A stretch of DNA of 64,000 nt, taken from Halanaerobium saccharolyticum subsp. saccharolyticum DSM 6643. Lineage in GTDB: Bacteria > Bacillota > Halanaerobiia > Halanaerobiales > Halanaerobiaceae. Of the stretch, positions 2,225-9,363 are shown one piece after another (the stretch's first letter is position 1; the number at the start of each line of letters is the position of its first letter). The stretch covers positions 62,001 through 126,000 of the forward strand of contig NZ_CAUI01000005.1 in assembly GCF_000350165.1 (NCBI RefSeq), written 5' to 3'. The position numbers and the translations under genes were made by a program. Under the pieces are notes generated by a model. It was given only the letters and a program-made list of their open reading frames with translations. It did no database searches and had not been told where the DNA came from.

Positions 2225-3340
2225 TTGATTAGATTAGAAAATTTATCAAAAATTTATTCTACAGCGGAAGAAGAAGCAGTTTCAGATTTAAATTTAGAAG
2301 TTAAAGAAGGGGAAATTTGTGTTTTTGTAGGTCCTTCTGGTTGTGGTAAGACAACTACTCTAAAAATGATAAATAGATTAATTGAACCATCTTCCGGAAA
2401 AATTTATATTAATCAAAAAGATGCTTTTTCCTTGAAAAAAAGTGAATTAAGAAGAGAAATTGGATATGTAATTCAGGAAATAGGACTTTTTCCTCATTTA
2501 ACAGTTAAAGAAAATGTTGCTACTGTACCAAAATTATTAAAATGGGAACAGGAAAAAATTGATAAAAGGGTAAAAGAATTAATAAAAGTAATCGGATTAG
2601 ATCCTGATAATCATTTGCACAAATATCCACATGAACTTTCAGGTGGACAGCAGCAGCGAGTTGGCGTAGCTAGGGCAATGGCAGCAGATCCACCAATTAT
2701 GCTGATGGATGAACCATTTGGGGCAGTTGATCCAATTACTAGAGCAGATTTGCAGAATGAATTTTTAAGACTGCAGAAAAAAATTAACAAGACTATTTGT
2801 TTTGTTACCCACGATATTGATGAAGCAATCAAGATGGGAGACAAAATTGCGATAATGAATCAGGGCGAATTGATTCAATATGATACCCCAAAAAACATTT
2901 TATTTAACCCGAAAAATGAATTTGTTGAAGATTTTATTGGTTCTGATAGAGGTTTAAAGGTTTTAAATCTTTTAAAAGCAAAAAAGGTAATGAAAAAAGA
3001 ATTTTTTAAAGTAGATAGAGCTGAAAGTTATGAACAGGTAATCAATAAATTAGAAGAATCAAAGCAAAAATATATTCTTGTAACAGCTGATAAAAGAAAG
3101 CTGATGGGTTATGTTAATCTAAAAAGGCTTAAAGAAAATGAAGAAGCTAACTGGGAAAAACATATAAAAATGACACCAGTGATAGAAGAAGATGCATCTT
3201 TAAAAGATGTTTTAAATAAAATGATAGAAAATGATGTAACTTTAATTCCTGTAGTCGACAGTGATAATAACCTTAAAGCAACAATAACGATGGAGATTAT
3301 TCAAAATTATATTAGCGATGAATATAATCAAGAAGACTAA
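2225..3340 (+). CDS. opuCA: Glycine betaine/choline-type ABC transporter ATPase with CBS pair
   Basis: This is the ATPase subunit of an osmolyte importer of the OpuC/OsmV type. It has Walker A GPSGCGKT at 36-43, the signature LSGGQQQRVGVARAMA and Walker B PIMLMDEPFGAVD. The last 120 residues form a CBS-domain pair, as in OpuCA and OpuAA, where it senses ionic strength or nucleotides. The start is TTG at 2225 behind an unusual ribosome site with seven consecutive G residues (2213-2219). The operon order is ATPase, permease, permease, binding protein. Betaine, choline or carnitine are the likely substrates by family; sequence alone does not decide. Confidence 0.92.
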   Translation: MIRLENLSKIYSTAEEEAVSDLNLEVKEGEICVFVGPSGCGKTTTLKMINRLIEPSSGKIYINQKDAFSLKKSELRREIGYVIQEIGLFPHLTVKENVATVPKLLKWEQEKIDKRVKELIKVIGLDPDNHLHKYPHELSGGQQQRVGVARAMAADPPIMLMDEPFGAVDPITRADLQNEFLRLQKKINKTICFVTHDIDEAIKMGDKIAIMNQGELIQYDTPKNILFNPKNEFVEDFIGSDRGLKVLNLLKAKKVMKKEFFKVDRAESYEQVINKLEESKQKYILVTADKRKLMGYVNLKRLKENEEANWEKHIKMTPVIEEDASLKDVLNKMIENDVTLIPVVDSDNNLKATITMEIIQNYISDEYNQED

Positions 3341-3352
3341 AGGAGGATTAAG

Positions 3353-4018
3353 ATGGCTGTAATTGAATATTTTCTTGAAAACTCGAATAAAATTTTAGAA
3401 TATACATTAGCACATCTTTATTTGATTTCAATTTCAATTACACTTTCCTTGATTCTCTGGGTAAGTGTGGGAATTATAATTAGAAATAGAGAAAAAACAG
3501 CAAAGTCTTTATTGGGCTTTGGCAGCTTGATTATGTCAGTTCCCAGTGTCTCACTTTATGGTATATTAATGACATTACCTGCTTTTGGTCTTAATATGAG
3601 AAGCGCAGTATTTGCCCTGGTTTTATATTCAATGATTCCTATTGTTAGAAATGTTTATACTTCTTTAAATGAAGTTGATTCAGCTATTTTGGAATCAGCA
3701 AGAGGTATGGGGATGACAGAAAAACAGATTCTTTGGAAGGTGCAGCTGCCGATGGCGATGCCTGTTATTATTGCAGGGATAAGAGTTGCACTTGTAATGA
3801 TGGTTGGAATTGCAACTCTGGCAGTTTTTATAGGTCAGCGTAATTTAGGACAGCTTATCTATCAGGGGATTGTTAGAACTAAAACAGAAATGATAGTTAG
3901 TGGTGCTGTTTTAATTTCATTAATTTCAATTATTGTTGATATTATGATGGAGATTTTAAAAAGAATTTTAGTCTCACCTGGTTTATTAAAAGCAGAATCA
4001 GCCGGGGAGGGAAAATAA
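3353..4018 (+). CDS. opuCB: OpuC-type ABC transporter permease 1
   Basis: This inner-membrane permease of 221 residues has about five or six hydrophobic segments. It carries the BPD-transport cytoplasmic loop around residues 115-140 (ESARGMGMTEKQILWKVQLP), where the ATPase docks. It sits 12 bases after the ATPase gene behind AGGAGG. It ends with the TAA directly adjoining the ATG of the second permease, so translation is probably coupled. It resembles OpuCB/OsmW-class permeases and should form a heterodimer with the next gene product. Confidence 0.9.
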   Translation: MAVIEYFLENSNKILEYTLAHLYLISISITLSLILWVSVGIIIRNREKTAKSLLGFGSLIMSVPSVSLYGILMTLPAFGLNMRSAVFALVLYSMIPIVRNVYTSLNEVDSAILESARGMGMTEKQILWKVQLPMAMPVIIAGIRVALVMMVGIATLAVFIGQRNLGQLIYQGIVRTKTEMIVSGAVLISLISIIVDIMMEILKRILVSPGLLKAESAGEGK

Positions 4019-4645
4019 ATGTGGAATGAAATATGGCAAATTTTTCTAAATGAAGGTATTGCTTTAATGATTGAACATTTACAATTGGTTGGATTGGCAG
4101 TATCAGCTGCGATTATAATTGCCCTTCCATCTGGTATATTACTAAGTCGGGATATCATGAAAGATTATACTGGGAAAATAATTTCAGTGTTTAATGTTGC
4201 TCAGGGATTACCCAGTCTGGCAATAATTGCTCTTTTTCTGCCGCTTTTGGGTATTGGTTTTATTCCAGCTGTAACTGCTCTGACTATTTATGCCTTACTG
4301 CCAATTGTTCGGAATACTATAGCAGGAATAAATAATGTAGAAGATGAAATAATAGAGGCTGCTCGAGGAATGGGTATGAATTCCTTTCAGGTTTTGTATA
4401 AGGTAGAATTACCTCTTGCTCTGCCAATTATTATTGCTGGTATACAGACAGCTTCTGTTGTAACTGTAGGTACGGCAGTGATTTCAAATTTAATAGGAGC
4501 TGGTGGCTTAGGCCAATTAATTTTTACAGGCTTGGTTAGATTTGATACTCGGAAAATTTTACTTGGTTCTATTTTATCTGCAATAATTGCTATAATAATT
4601 GATCGTTTATTTGATCTTTTGGAGAAAATGTTGCAGAATAATTAA
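4019..4645 (+). CDS. opuCD: OpuC-type ABC transporter permease 2
   Basis: This is the second integral permease subunit, 208 residues long. Its EAARGMGMNSFQVLYKVELP loop is the ATPase-coupling motif and matches the loop of its neighbour, so the two are paralogues. The ATG directly abuts the stop codon of permease 1, with GGGGAGGG inside the end of that gene as ribosome site. In Bacillus the binding protein lies between the permeases. Here it follows both. Confidence 0.9.
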   Translation: MWNEIWQIFLNEGIALMIEHLQLVGLAVSAAIIIALPSGILLSRDIMKDYTGKIISVFNVAQGLPSLAIIALFLPLLGIGFIPAVTALTIYALLPIVRNTIAGINNVEDEIIEAARGMGMNSFQVLYKVELPLALPIIIAGIQTASVVTVGTAVISNLIGAGGLGQLIFTGLVRFDTRKILLGSILSAIIAIIIDRLFDLLEKMLQNN

Positions 4646-4706: not shown

Positions 4707-5687
4707 ATGTTAAAGAAGAAAAAGTTTGTATTTTCTTTATTGGTAATTTCTTTAGTTTTTACTCTATTCTTAACTGGCTGTGGACAAGATGAGGCTCAAA
4801 ATGCGAATACAACTGCTGAAACAGAAAAAGCAGAAGAAGTAGAAGGTATCAGATTGGCAACAACTATTGATTTTTTTGAAAGAGACGATGGTCTTAGTGG
4901 TTTAGAAAAAGCATATGGTTTTGAATTTAATGATAGTAATGTAAATACAATGCAGCCTGGACTTGGCTATGAAGCTTTAGATTCAAATAAGGTTGATGTA
5001 GCAATTGGTTTTGCTACAGACGGAAGAATTGCTTCTATGAATCTCAGAATCTTAGAAGACGATAAAGGTTTTTTCCCAGTTTATAATCCAGCCCCAACTA
5101 TAAGAGGAGAAATTTTAGAAAGCTATCCCGAACTAAAAAGTTTAATTAATGAATTACCACCGCTGCTTGGTCAGGAAAAACAAATAGAATTAAATAAAAG
5201 AGTGGCTGTGGAAGAAGAATCACCAGCAAAAGTTGCTGAAGACTTTCTAAAAGAAAATGATCTTTTAGCTGAAGAAGCAGAAGAAAAAGAAGGACCTACA
5301 ATTGCAGTTGCTTCCAAACCCTGGACGGAACAGTTGATTTTAGGACATATGACTATCAAGCTTTTAGAAAGTCATGGGTATCCTGTTGAAGACAGAACCA
5401 GTCTTGGTGAAACAGCAGTTTTAAGACCTGCTATTGAATCTGGTGAAATTGATATGTACTGGGAGTATACAGGAACCACTTTAATGACAACTATGGGTTA
5501 TGAAGAAGAAATTATTGAATCAGAAGAGGCTTATCAGACTGTAAAAGAATGGGATGCAGAAAATAATAATATTATCTGGCTTGATTATGCAGAAGCAAAT
5601 AACACTTTTTGTCTGTTGATGAAAGAGAATAAAGCAGAAGAAATGGGTATTGAAAAAATTAGTGATCTAGAAGAACACATTAAATAA
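4707..5687 (+). CDS. opuCC: Betaine-type substrate-binding lipoprotein with circularly permuted domains
   Basis: This is the extracytoplasmic binding protein of the osmolyte importer, 326 residues. A lipoprotein signal ends in the lipobox LTGC (C25), then a short acidic linker follows. Residues 47-186 correspond to what is normally the C-terminal half of OpuCC/OsmF proteins (FFERDDG, YGFEF, ATDGRIA, DDKGFFPVYNPAP, ending AEDFLKENDLL). Residues 197-326 correspond to the normal N-terminal half (SKPWTEQLILGHM, RPAIESGEIDMYWEYTGT, ending ISDLEEHIK). All parts are present once, so this is a permutation and not a truncation or fusion. It probably still binds a quaternary-amine solute. A terminator follows. 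Confidence 0.9.
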   Translation: MLKKKKFVFSLLVISLVFTLFLTGCGQDEAQNANTTAETEKAEEVEGIRLATTIDFFERDDGLSGLEKAYGFEFNDSNVNTMQPGLGYEALDSNKVDVAIGFATDGRIASMNLRILEDDKGFFPVYNPAPTIRGEILESYPELKSLINELPPLLGQEKQIELNKRVAVEEESPAKVAEDFLKENDLLAEEAEEKEGPTIAVASKPWTEQLILGHMTIKLLESHGYPVEDRTSLGETAVLRPAIESGEIDMYWEYTGTTLMTTMGYEEEIIESEEAYQTVKEWDAENNNIIWLDYAEANNTFCLLMKENKAEEMGIEKISDLEEHIK

Positions 5688-5706
5688 AAAAATGATTGAA
5701 TTTTAG

Positions 5707-5752
5707 CCTCAGAACAGTTTTGAGAAATTGCTACTGTTTCTGGGGTTTTTTA
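5707..5752 (+). terminator. Terminator of the opuC-type operon
   Basis: An imperfect 12-pair stem (5707-5718 with 5733-5745) is followed by GGGGTTTTTT. It closes the four-gene transporter operon. Confidence 0.8.
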
Positions 5753-5855
5753 GAGGGAAAATAGATTTTATATTGAATACATATAATTGAGTTGTTTTAT
5801 AAAAAATTAATTTATCTTATAATTCAGCTTAACACAAAAAACAAGGAGGAAAACA

Positions 5856-7112
5856 ATGAAAAAGACACTACTATTTTTACTAACTATCACAATCATTTTT
5901 TTAACAACTCTAACTACATCTGCAGCATTAGATGCTGAAGCAATTGGTATGGGTGATAATTTTTCAACTATGACAGGAGAGGCTGCTTATTATTCTAACC
6001 CGGCTGGACTTGCATTAAGAAAAAACAATTTTGCTGTAAAAACGAATTTTGGACTTTCAGTTTGGAATAATGTTTTTGAGAACAGTGAATTTTCCGAAGA
6101 TGAAATTGAAAGTAAATTAACAGGAGAAGATTTAATTTTAGCCGGAAGAACAGCCTTTGGAACTCAGATCTATTATAAAAACTTTGCTCTGGCTATTAAT
6201 GGTCGTGGTGAAGGAATACTGGAAACAGATAGTGATGCAGCAGAGATTTTAACTGGAGATACTCCGGAAATTAGTTTAGATGCTTTAAGAGATAAAGGAT
6301 CAGTAACAGTTGACTTTGGTGAAACTACAGGTGGAGCTGCAGCAACTGCTGATGTATCTTTAAGTTATGCCCGTGAGATCTTTAATCAGTGGTCAGAGGA
6401 TTCAGCCAAAGTAGAAGGACTTTATTTTGGTGCTACATATCATTATTTAGAAGGTGAGATTTATAAATTTTCTGGTGATGGAGAAATTACTGCTGAGTTT
6501 AAGGAAAATTCAGGAGATTCATACGTAAAATATAGTGCTTCAGACGCAAAGTTTTATGAAAAACATTCTGAAGATGGAGAGGCCAGTGGTGATGTTTTTG
6601 ATTTTGGTTTAGCACTTAAAACAGCAGGAAATTATACATTTGCCTTCAGTGCAATGAATATTGGAGAATTATCTGCTGATAGTTCTGTTATTGATGGTAC
6701 AGAATATACAGTAACCACTAAAGATAAAACTGATGATACTTTAACAGAAAATGAGTTAGTTGGAGAAGCTGGAAATATAACTTATAAACTACCTCGGGTC
6801 TACAGGCTGGGTATGAAAAAAGAGTTCAGCCCGAATACTGTATTTTATGCAGACTACTCCCGTGTAAGTTATGATGGGGGTCAGGATGATAATATTTATG
6901 CCATTGGTAGTGAATTTAGAAAAACTAAATTTATTCCTCTGCGTCTGGGAGTTAATTATTCATCCTTAAGAGAAGATGTTGAACTGGCAGCTGGAATGGG
7001 GATTAATATCAGCAATAATTTTAAAATTAATTTAGGTATCTCTGATTTACTTGCATTAAGTGATAAAGCTAAAAGTGTTAAGTTTGGTATTTCAACATTA
7101 ATTAGCTTTTAA
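5856..7112 (+). CDS. Probable outer-membrane beta-barrel protein (PorV/UPF0164-like)
   Basis: The protein has 418 residues with a clear Sec signal peptide (MKK, hydrophobic core, cleavage near TSA-AL). The mature N-terminus, with AIGMGDNFSTM and AAYYSNPAGLAL, resembles PorV/FadL/UPF0164-type outer-membrane proteins, in which a GxGxA-type start precedes SNPAGLA. The rest alternates polar and hydrophobic residues like beta strands. The chain ends in Phe (KFGISTLISF), the usual barrel-insertion signal. The gene stands alone, with AAGGAGG before the ATG and a terminator after the stop. No transport substrate can be named. Family assignment is moderate; the secreted barrel nature is fairly clear. 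Confidence 0.75.
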   Translation: MKKTLLFLLTITIIFLTTLTTSAALDAEAIGMGDNFSTMTGEAAYYSNPAGLALRKNNFAVKTNFGLSVWNNVFENSEFSEDEIESKLTGEDLILAGRTAFGTQIYYKNFALAINGRGEGILETDSDAAEILTGDTPEISLDALRDKGSVTVDFGETTGGAAATADVSLSYAREIFNQWSEDSAKVEGLYFGATYHYLEGEIYKFSGDGEITAEFKENSGDSYVKYSASDAKFYEKHSEDGEASGDVFDFGLALKTAGNYTFAFSAMNIGELSADSSVIDGTEYTVTTKDKTDDTLTENELVGEAGNITYKLPRVYRLGMKKEFSPNTVFYADYSRVSYDGGQDDNIYAIGSEFRKTKFIPLRLGVNYSSLREDVELAAGMGINISNNFKINLGISDLLALSDKAKSVKFGISTLISF

Positions 7113-7163
7113 TTTAAAGACAAATCCGACTAAGATTAAAAAATAAACAAGTGATTTTAATTA

Positions 7164-7191
7164 ACCGGTCCCTGTGGCCGGTCTTTTTTTG
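7164..7191 (+). terminator. Terminator after the outer-membrane-type gene
   Basis: ACCGG and CCGGT pair across a 9-base loop (7164-7182), followed by TCTTTTTTT. This is a GC-rich stem in an AT-rich region. Confidence 0.85.
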
Positions 7192-7251
7192 GAAAAAATA
7201 AAATTAAAAGAAGGATTTTAGGATCTGGTCTAGAAACTATAACATTGGTTT

Positions 7252-7273
7252 GTCTAAAAAATAATATTTAGAC
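7252..7273. repeat. Inverted repeat upstream of the FAD dehydrogenase gene
   Basis: GTCTAAA at 7252-7258 and TTTAGAC at 7267-7273 are perfect complements across 8 bases, about 30 bases before the start codon. It could be an operator or a weak leader hairpin. No clear promoter elements let me choose. Confidence 0.4.
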
Positions 7274-7305
7274 TTTATTTTAAAAACCTGGAGGTTTAAA
7301 AATTA

Positions 7306-8706
7306 ATGAGCAAAAAAGATTATGATGTGATTATCATTGGCGCTGGACCGACTGGAATATTTACTGCAATGGAATTTGTCAAAAAAGAAGCAGAATTAGA
7401 TATTCTAATTTTGGAAAAAGGTACTGATTTAGAAAGAAGAGTCTGTCCAATGAAAGAGAATCCAGGCATGGGATGTGTTAATTGTCCAAGCTGTGCAATA
7501 GTATCAGGTTGGGGTGGAGCTGGAGCCTATAGTGATGGAAAACTTTCACTTTCCCCTGATATTGGTGGAAATCTGGAAAATTATATAGGTAGACAGCAGT
7601 TAATTGATAATATTTCTTATGCGGATGATATTTATATGGAATTTGGTGCTCCAGACCGAATATTTGGAGTTGCCGAAGATAAACAGGATGAAATCAGAAA
7701 AAAAGCTGTTAAAGCTGAATTAAAATTTATTCCTGCTAGTTTAAGACACTTAGGAACGGGATATAGTCAAGTTGTTTTACAGAACATGCAGGATTTTTTA
7801 GAAGAAAAGGGAGTAGAAATTAGATTTGGAGTAAATGTTAAAAAGTTTATAGTAGAAGATGATAAAATTGAAGCAGTAAAAACCGCTGCTGGAGATAAAA
7901 TAACAGCTAATTATGTAATGGCTGCAGCCGGTAGAGAAAATGCAGAATGGTTAACAAACGAAGCTAAAAAATTAGATATAGAAACAGCAATAAATCCAGT
8001 TGATATTGGTGTTAGAGTTGAGTGCCCGGCAGCTATAACAGAATATATGACTGATAATTTATATGAATCAAAGTTAATTTACCATACACCTACTTTTGAT
8101 GATAAGGTTAGAACATTTTGTATGTCTCCATATGGAGAGGTCGTTAGTGAAAATAATCAGGGGTTGATCACTGTAAATGGTCATAGTCACTCTGATATTA
8201 AAACACATAACACAAATTTTGCACTTTTAGTGAGTAAGACATTTACCGAACCATTTCATGAACCGATTACCTATGGTAAAGATATTGCTAAACTAGCTAA
8301 TTTATTAGCTGGAGGAGTCTTAGTTCAAAGATTAGGTGATTTACTTGATGGAAGAAGGACTACTGAAGAAAGACTTGAAAGATCTGTTACAGAGCCAACT
8401 TTAAAAGATGCAACTCCTGGAGATTTATCATTAGTTTTACCTCATAGACACCTAACAGGAATTATTGAAATGTTAAAAGCATTAGACAAAATAACTCCTG
8501 GCATTTATGGGCGTGATACTTTACTTTATGGTGTGGAAGTTAAATTTTATTCATCTAGACTGAATATTGATGACAATTTAGAATCTAAAGTAGAAAATTT
8601 ATTTTTTGGAGGCGATGGAGCAGGTATAACAAGAGGATTAATGCAGGCTTCGGTTTCAGGAATAGTTATTGCACGTTCAATAATGGAAAAGTTAAATAGT
8701 AAATAA
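7306..8706 (+). CDS. FAD-dependent dehydrogenase, COG2509 family
   Basis: This is a cytosolic flavoprotein of 466 residues. The N-terminal Rossmann dinucleotide-binding motif is IIIGAGPTGIF (residues 9-19), ending in the acidic ILEKG strand. A cysteine-containing segment (CPMKENPGMGCVNCPSC) and GWGGAGAYSDGKLS are hallmarks of the uncharacterised COG2509 dehydrogenases. The C-terminal FFGGDGAGITRGLMQAS is the second FAD-contact motif. The substrate is unknown for the family. The gene is monocistronic, with AACCTGGAGG before the ATG and a terminator after. Confidence 0.85.
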   Translation: MSKKDYDVIIIGAGPTGIFTAMEFVKKEAELDILILEKGTDLERRVCPMKENPGMGCVNCPSCAIVSGWGGAGAYSDGKLSLSPDIGGNLENYIGRQQLIDNISYADDIYMEFGAPDRIFGVAEDKQDEIRKKAVKAELKFIPASLRHLGTGYSQVVLQNMQDFLEEKGVEIRFGVNVKKFIVEDDKIEAVKTAAGDKITANYVMAAAGRENAEWLTNEAKKLDIETAINPVDIGVRVECPAAITEYMTDNLYESKLIYHTPTFDDKVRTFCMSPYGEVVSENNQGLITVNGHSHSDIKTHNTNFALLVSKTFTEPFHEPITYGKDIAKLANLLAGGVLVQRLGDLLDGRRTTEERLERSVTEPTLKDATPGDLSLVLPHRHLTGIIEMLKALDKITPGIYGRDTLLYGVEVKFYSSRLNIDDNLESKVENLFFGGDGAGITRGLMQASVSGIVIARSIMEKLNSK

Positions 8707-8715
8707 CTAATAAAA

Positions 8716-8768
8716 GCAGTAAAACTAGACTATTTTAAATAGTTAATAGTTTTACTGCCTTTTTTTGT
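8716..8768 (+). terminator. Terminator after the COG2509 gene
   Basis: A perfect 12-base stem (8716-8727 with 8747-8758) is followed by C and seven or more T residues. Confidence 0.92.
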
Positions 8769-8820
8769 GAAATGGTCTGACTGTGGGGGAAATTTTTTAT
8801 TGAAATTGTTAAATTTTAAC

Positions 8821-8849
8821 TTGATATTTATTCTCAATAAATATACAAT
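8821..8849 (+). promoter_or_regulatory. Peroxiredoxin promoter with embedded palindromic operator
   Basis: TTGATA (8821-8826) and TACAAT (8844-8849) are 17 bases apart. A perfect palindrome, ATATTTATT-CTC-AATAAATAT (8824-8844), fills the whole spacer and touches both boxes, so a bound protein would block RNA polymerase. The sequence is not a textbook PerR or Fur box. Confidence 0.65.
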
Positions 8850-8901
8850 TAAAAACAAGTTAATAGCTCAAGTTTAATATATTTTAGAGGGGGTATCTTA
8901 A

Positions 8902-9363
8902 ATGAAATTAAATGTAGGAGATAGAATTCCAAATTTAAAATTAAGAGACCATAATGAAGAAGAAGTTACTTTAGATGATTTTGATGGTAAAAATGTATTA
9001 TTATCATTTCATCCTTTAGCCTGGACAAGTGTTTGTCGTGATCAGATGCAGGCTCTAGAAGCAAATTATGAAGAATTCGAAAAAAATGACACAGTTCCTC
9101 TTGGAATTAGTGTTGATCCAATTCCTTCTAAGCGAGCATGGGCAGAAAAGATGGGCTTAGAAAATTTAAGACTTTTATCTGATTTTTGGCCTCATGGAAT
9201 TTTCGCTTCAAAATTGGGGATTTTTATAGAAGATAAAGGAATTTCAGGTCGAGTAAACATCTTAGTGGATGATCAGGGTGAGGTTCTTTGGATCAAAGAA
9301 TATGACATTCCAGAATTACCAGATATGGATGAAGTATTAGATGCTGTAAAAAATAACTCTTAA
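8902..9363 (+). CDS. 1-Cys peroxiredoxin (AhpC/TSA family)
   Basis: This thioredoxin-fold peroxidase reduces H2O2 or organic peroxides. The 153 residues include the peroxidatic site PLAWTSVC with C45. No other cysteine occurs, so a resolving thiol must come from another protein or a low-molecular thiol. The usual Pro/Thr of PxxxTxxC is kept as P38, T42 and C45. AGAGGGGG precedes the ATG at 8902. It has its own promoter, overlapped by a palindrome, which suggests redox or metal control. The physiological electron donor is not shown by the context. Confidence 0.92.
   Translation: MKLNVGDRIPNLKLRDHNEEEVTLDDFDGKNVLLSFHPLAWTSVCRDQMQALEANYEEFEKNDTVPLGISVDPIPSKRAWAEKMGLENLRLLSDFWPHGIFASKLGIFIEDKGISGRVNILVDDQGEVLWIKEYDIPELPDMDEVLDAVKNNS

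Follow-up and report, generated by a model that had tools for sequence, protein, structure and literature searches.

A substrate-binding lipoprotein of 326 residues (P0001), encoded at positions 4707–5687 (+ strand) of the window, the whole 64,000-nucleotide stretch of Halanaerobium saccharolyticum DNA that was analysed, carries the two segments of an OsmF/OpuCC-type binding protein in reverse order, as judged from its sequence, its PF04069 and PDB matches, and a structural model. With a probability of roughly 0.9, it is a functional, natural circular permutant that serves an OsmF/OpuC-type ABC importer of a quaternary-ammonium solute such as glycine betaine or choline.

All parts of the gene lie on the + strand. 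It begins with a lipoprotein signal peptide (4707–4781) that ends in the lipobox L-T-G-C25 and is modelled as a helix over residues 3–22. This is followed by an acidic spacer (residues 26–46; 4782–4844) of low pLDDT and, among relatives, variable length; it would be disordered and connect the lipid anchor to the folded part. In canonical OsmF-type proteins, the counterpart of segment A (residues 47–187; 4845–5267) is the C-terminal part, and that of segment B (residues 196–326; 5292–5684) is the N-terminal part. Between the two is the linker AEEAEEKE (residues 188–195; 5268–5291), which in sequence and model connects the former C- and N-termini. The initial annotation had placed an acidic linker at residues 187–196; its acidic character stands, while the limits found here enclose eight residues.

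Upstream of the gene, three partner genes share its orientation: an ABC transporter ATPase with a CBS domain (2225–3340, + strand; PF00005 and PF00571; listed start TTG), ABC permease A (3353–4018, + strand; PF00528), and ABC permease B (4019–4645, + strand; PF00528). Both these partners and the lipoprotein signal had been described as normal, and the matches agree. By reading, the open reading frames on either side of the operon appear to be unrelated; those that precede the ATPase are guaA-like and, next, one for a TrpR-like regulator. A scan for promoters and terminators near the operon gave promoter-like sites at no more than chance level. The order ATPase-permease-permease-binding protein is also found at the Halanaerobium locus L036, which is permuted, and at the canonical locus L041; in the remaining permuted Halanaerobiales, the available locus spans part of the operon only.

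Comparison with family models bears out the reversed order that had been proposed from the letters. PF04069, a profile of 257 positions, matches the protein in two stretches, with profile positions 102–257 (segment A) preceding positions 2–113 (segment B), for a total of 193.7 bits against a Pfam gathering cut-off of 21.2. Each half thus matches the opposite end of the profile. The NCBIfam OsmF model also matches in two stretches, with residues 198–325 falling on profile positions 4–132. This curated model expects collinear order, and the protein is scored as two partial matches far below the cut-off (189.5 bits for the GlyBetbindOsmF equivalog, with a curated threshold of 400). In many OsmF-type chains of the PDB, phmmer aligned residues 48–194 with the C-terminal part and residues ~195–325 with the N-terminal part, at E values down to 1e-47. 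No collinear match of the whole protein to PF04069 or to OsmF-type PDB chains was obtained, and both segments are complete and occur once each, as first claimed. When the protein was un-permuted in silico (196–326 followed by 47–190), the result was one collinear Pfam stretch (207.2 bits; residues 3–268 against profile 2–257) and single full-length alignments to most PDB chains. Proteins of cluster F-III (OsmF/OpuCC-type) run collinearly from B to A, whereas P0001 runs from A to B. OpuAC chains of the 2B4L type, to which identity is 14–18%, were absent from the phmmer PDB lists at E 0.001.

The same contrast between sequence and chain order is seen in predicted structures. The AlphaFold2 model of P0001, for which full-length permuted proteins were aligned with halves of canonical ones, reached a pLDDT of 90.2 and a pTM of 0.82 with an ordered linker, and the normal two-domain fold is predicted to be intact despite the permutation. 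Its top five Foldseek matches in the PDB are B. subtilis OpuAC, matched over the whole chain (~295 columns, 14–16% identity). OsmF-type chains cover only ~140–150 columns (up to 40% identity; best 1.1–1.7 Å), and OsmF and EgtU, the protein's own sequence relatives, match it structurally over half only. With VIA-align, OpuAC scored Z 17.2–18.6 over 243–249 residues, and the next rows were at approximately Z 10. The nearest canonical relative, L041, which is 64% and 57% identical to P0001 in the two halves, served as a control and was modelled with canonical relatives as the input alignment (pLDDT 85.1). Both OsmF/YehZ (TM 0.91 by target) and other F-III chains match this model over its full length; its top 50 structural matches include no OpuAC of the 2B4L type. 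In the two models, the secondary-structure order of L041 is a rotated copy of that of P0001. From these matches, P0001 belongs to the OsmF branch by sequence but follows OpuAC in chain order, while L041 retains the OsmF/YehZ topology.

The position of the cut can be placed by reference to the solved structure of EgtUC, in which domain 1 comprises residues 233–331 and 445–506, and domain 2 comprises residues 341–432 (PMC9732360). Alignment and residue spacing match N339/Y341 of EgtUC to N299/F301 of P0001, and R379/Y443 to R59/Y126. The cut falls at about EgtUC 366/367, ~25 residues into domain 2, where a loop joins the SDLxxxI helix to the following strand. The initial annotation had the new ends exactly at the inter-lobe hinge and the swapped segments as lobes; that reading is rejected on the EgtUC domain limits and the models of P0001 and L041. 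With a cut inside domain 2, both segments hold parts of both domains. For the same reason, with domain limits set by alignment and residue spacing against EgtUC, domain 1 of P0001 would be made continuous (~128–187, linker, 196–291), domain 2 would be assembled from the two chain ends (302–326 and 47–115), and the lipid anchor would be moved by the permutation from domain 1 to domain 2.

The aromatic cage and carboxylate-binding residues of EgtUC are likewise known from its solved structure (PMC9732360). By alignment and spacing, they correspond to R59, F102 and Y126 in segment A, and to K204, Y254, T257, N299 and F301 in segment B. The K, Y, T, N, R and Y residues are invariant in all permuted proteins, and positions 301 and 102 are always aromatic; F301 and F102 of P0001 represent Phe in place of Tyr at two cage positions, which counts against the ligand assignment. 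An aromatic cage with K/T/R carboxylate contacts, encoded beside an ATPase and two permeases, is characteristic of cluster F-III, and the best inference from the cage residues is a quaternary-ammonium ligand. It would bind in the cleft, with opening and closing about the same two hinge strands as in canonical proteins. The operons of some relatives adjoin genes of the trimethylamine-methyltransferase (MttB) family. For example, at locus L039 the operon of the permuted transporter is located between two MttB genes (PF06253; 196–1746 and 5523–7073), and the Anaerolineales tandem gene described below also has such a neighbour. These genes fit methylated-amine use in L039 and the Anaerolineales relatives.

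Although the initial annotation treated the protein as a single case, the arrangement is recurrent, with at least three origins by trees and AU tests. A survey of ~1,200 genomes and GTDB contigs yielded 17 distinct, sufficiently complete permuted proteins that were used in trees: seven from Halanaerobiales, eight of syntrophomonad or other Clostridia type, and two from a planctomycete group. Within the Halanaerobiales, 7 of 38 genomes carry the permuted form in the same A-B order, 7 of 38 the canonical form, and none of the 38 both. No permuted form was found in 198 genomes of the spirochaete phylum at E 1e-60.

Several variations on the arrangement were observed along the way. The G313/G932 genome has two adjacent permuted copies; the two binding-protein genes (L245 and L246, at 1352135 and 1356077 on contig 1 of the single-contig genome G932) are ~4 kb apart, which suggests duplicated transporters. 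In the single-contig genome G007, the permuted protein L011 reads LGGY where its close relative L009 has the lipobox LGGC, and judging from this motif it may no longer be a lipoprotein. The planctomycete-group permutants L042 and L217 are without a lipobox and have an apparent uncleaved N-terminal membrane anchor. At locus L038, a second PF04069-type transporter (6136–9176) adjoins the permuted OsmF-type operon on the opposite strand, and its binding protein matches the profile in one collinear stretch.

Trees were built on sequences put into one segment order. They contain 5–6 changes of state, of which at least 4–5 are forced by well-supported branches. One clade for all permuted proteins is rejected (p-AU 0.0009), as is one clade for the permuted proteins of Bacillota (p-AU 3e-10); the permuted grouping itself was fixed by the sequences, whereas sub-groups had been seen before testing and their p values are somewhat optimistic. 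Three independent origins are established in this way (Halanaerobiales, syntrophomonad/Clostridia, and Planctomycetes), and up to five are possible. The trees also suggested two origins for the planctomycete pair and a separation of L039 from the syntrophomonad clade; both were non-significant (p 0.11 and 0.18, respectively) and are not claimed.

A single ancestral permutation, inherited vertically or by gene transfer and followed by reversions in some lines, would agree with the use of the same cut loop in every permuted protein and with a linker of similar length (7–10 residues) throughout. It is nonetheless improbable, given the AU results, the nesting of every lineage with its own canonical sisters in the full tree and in each half alone, and the equally complex rearrangement that a reversion requires. 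Trees of the separate halves also keep the permuted lineages apart. Residues at the cut follow lineage, not segment order; for instance, WVFATDHEF occurs in the syntrophomonad clade and in its canonical sisters. Still less probable is the joining of halves by recombination between different binding-protein genes: the sharp, modular segment boundaries would suit it, but in separate trees both Halanaerobiales halves fall beside L041, L013, L017 and L160, the same canonical relatives each time. An artefact of assembly or annotation, or a decaying gene, has no result in its favour and is highly improbable, since the same order recurs across phyla and in seven Halanaerobiales genomes, of which two (G007 and G017) are single 2.6 Mb contigs that rule out assembly error, the partner genes are intact, and the gene is under purifying selection (dN/dS of 0.09 and 0.13 by NG86 against the two closest permuted relatives).

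Repeated permutation of one gene, the preferred reading, would start from a duplication within the operon. The first product would be a tandem B-A-B-A fusion, and loss of the first B and the last A would then leave signal-A-linker-B. Permutation by duplication, a mechanism that has been reviewed (PMC3320104), predicts such a fusion. In an Anaerolineales MAG, a gene at 4896–6137 of locus L040 reads signal-B-A-B up to the contig end, and the two B copies are 90% identical in DNA, so that the repeat is no simple assembly echo. Another contig of the same genome (L186) opens partway through an A segment; a stop ends the segment, and an MttB gene follows. Joining the two contig ends would probably give a complete B-A-B-A gene, with two whole binding proteins in one polypeptide, and thus a probable example, from another lineage (Chloroflexota), of the expected duplication intermediate. 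None was seen in the Halanaerobiales themselves, and no further tandem fusions came to light among the matches from 249 other genomes of the Anaerolineales MAG's class, 246 planctomycete-phylum genomes or 198 spirochaete-phylum genomes. Two adjacent canonical OsmF-type binding-protein genes occur in Alteribacter natronophilus (L052, 4425–6390), an arrangement that could be a starting point for fusion and permutation.

Natural circular permutations are mostly known between very distant proteins, and for this reason the how and why of these events are hard to test. Here, several recent permutations at one site can be studied against sisters ~60% identical, in the same operon and with a probable duplicated intermediate. 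Permuted and canonical proteins can be compared directly in pairs for how stable they are, how tightly they hold the ligand, how the hinge moves and how they dock to the same permeases, and they allow a test of whether the anchor shift between domains has a purpose. It seems fairly likely that this one OsmF-type loop is a permutation hot-spot, at which at least three, and perhaps five, independent events re-created the OpuAC topology and for which the Anaerolineales B-A-B-A gene is a living intermediate. If so, these proteins show, in recent and closely matched cases, the step that once separated OpuAC-type from ProX-type proteins, and selection may have favoured permutation for its transfer of the membrane anchor to the other domain.

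The OpuAC-like topology as such has been known since 2008, when CPSARST reported circular permutation among the glycine-betaine binding proteins OpuAC (2B4L), ProX (1R9L) and ProX (1SW1) (PMC2395249). It is therefore not new, and the initial annotation was right that a rearranged order had been described in other betaine-binding domains. For a permuted OsmF/OpuCC-type protein, the openly searchable literature yielded only that paper and, as a general case, TpMglB-2; no report of repeated, recent permutation at one loop inside the OsmF/OpuCC branch was found there. The CPSARST family shows the same kind of permutation but at <24% identity, whereas here it occurs within one subfamily.

Compared with individual systems, P0001 is most like the cluster F-III proteins OsmF/YehZ, OpuCC/OpuBC, A. 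fulgidus ProX and EgtUC: it belongs to their sequence family, with each half up to 40% identical to members of solved structure, and it shares their cage residues, their operon partners, and the fold of each part. It differs from them in segment order, in which domain is discontinuous, and in which domain bears the anchor. B. subtilis OpuAC (2B4L/2B4M) has the same chain order and matches over its full length (Z up to 18.6), but at 14–18% identity it belongs to another sequence branch, one whose cage is built on Trp (PMC9732360). In Treponema pallidum, TpMglB-2 is also a natural circularly permuted lipoprotein of the substrate-binding kind, and it binds glucose (PMC4990184). In contrast to P0001, it is a sugar-binding type I protein of unrelated sequence, in which the moved part is a C-terminal stretch of the N lobe.
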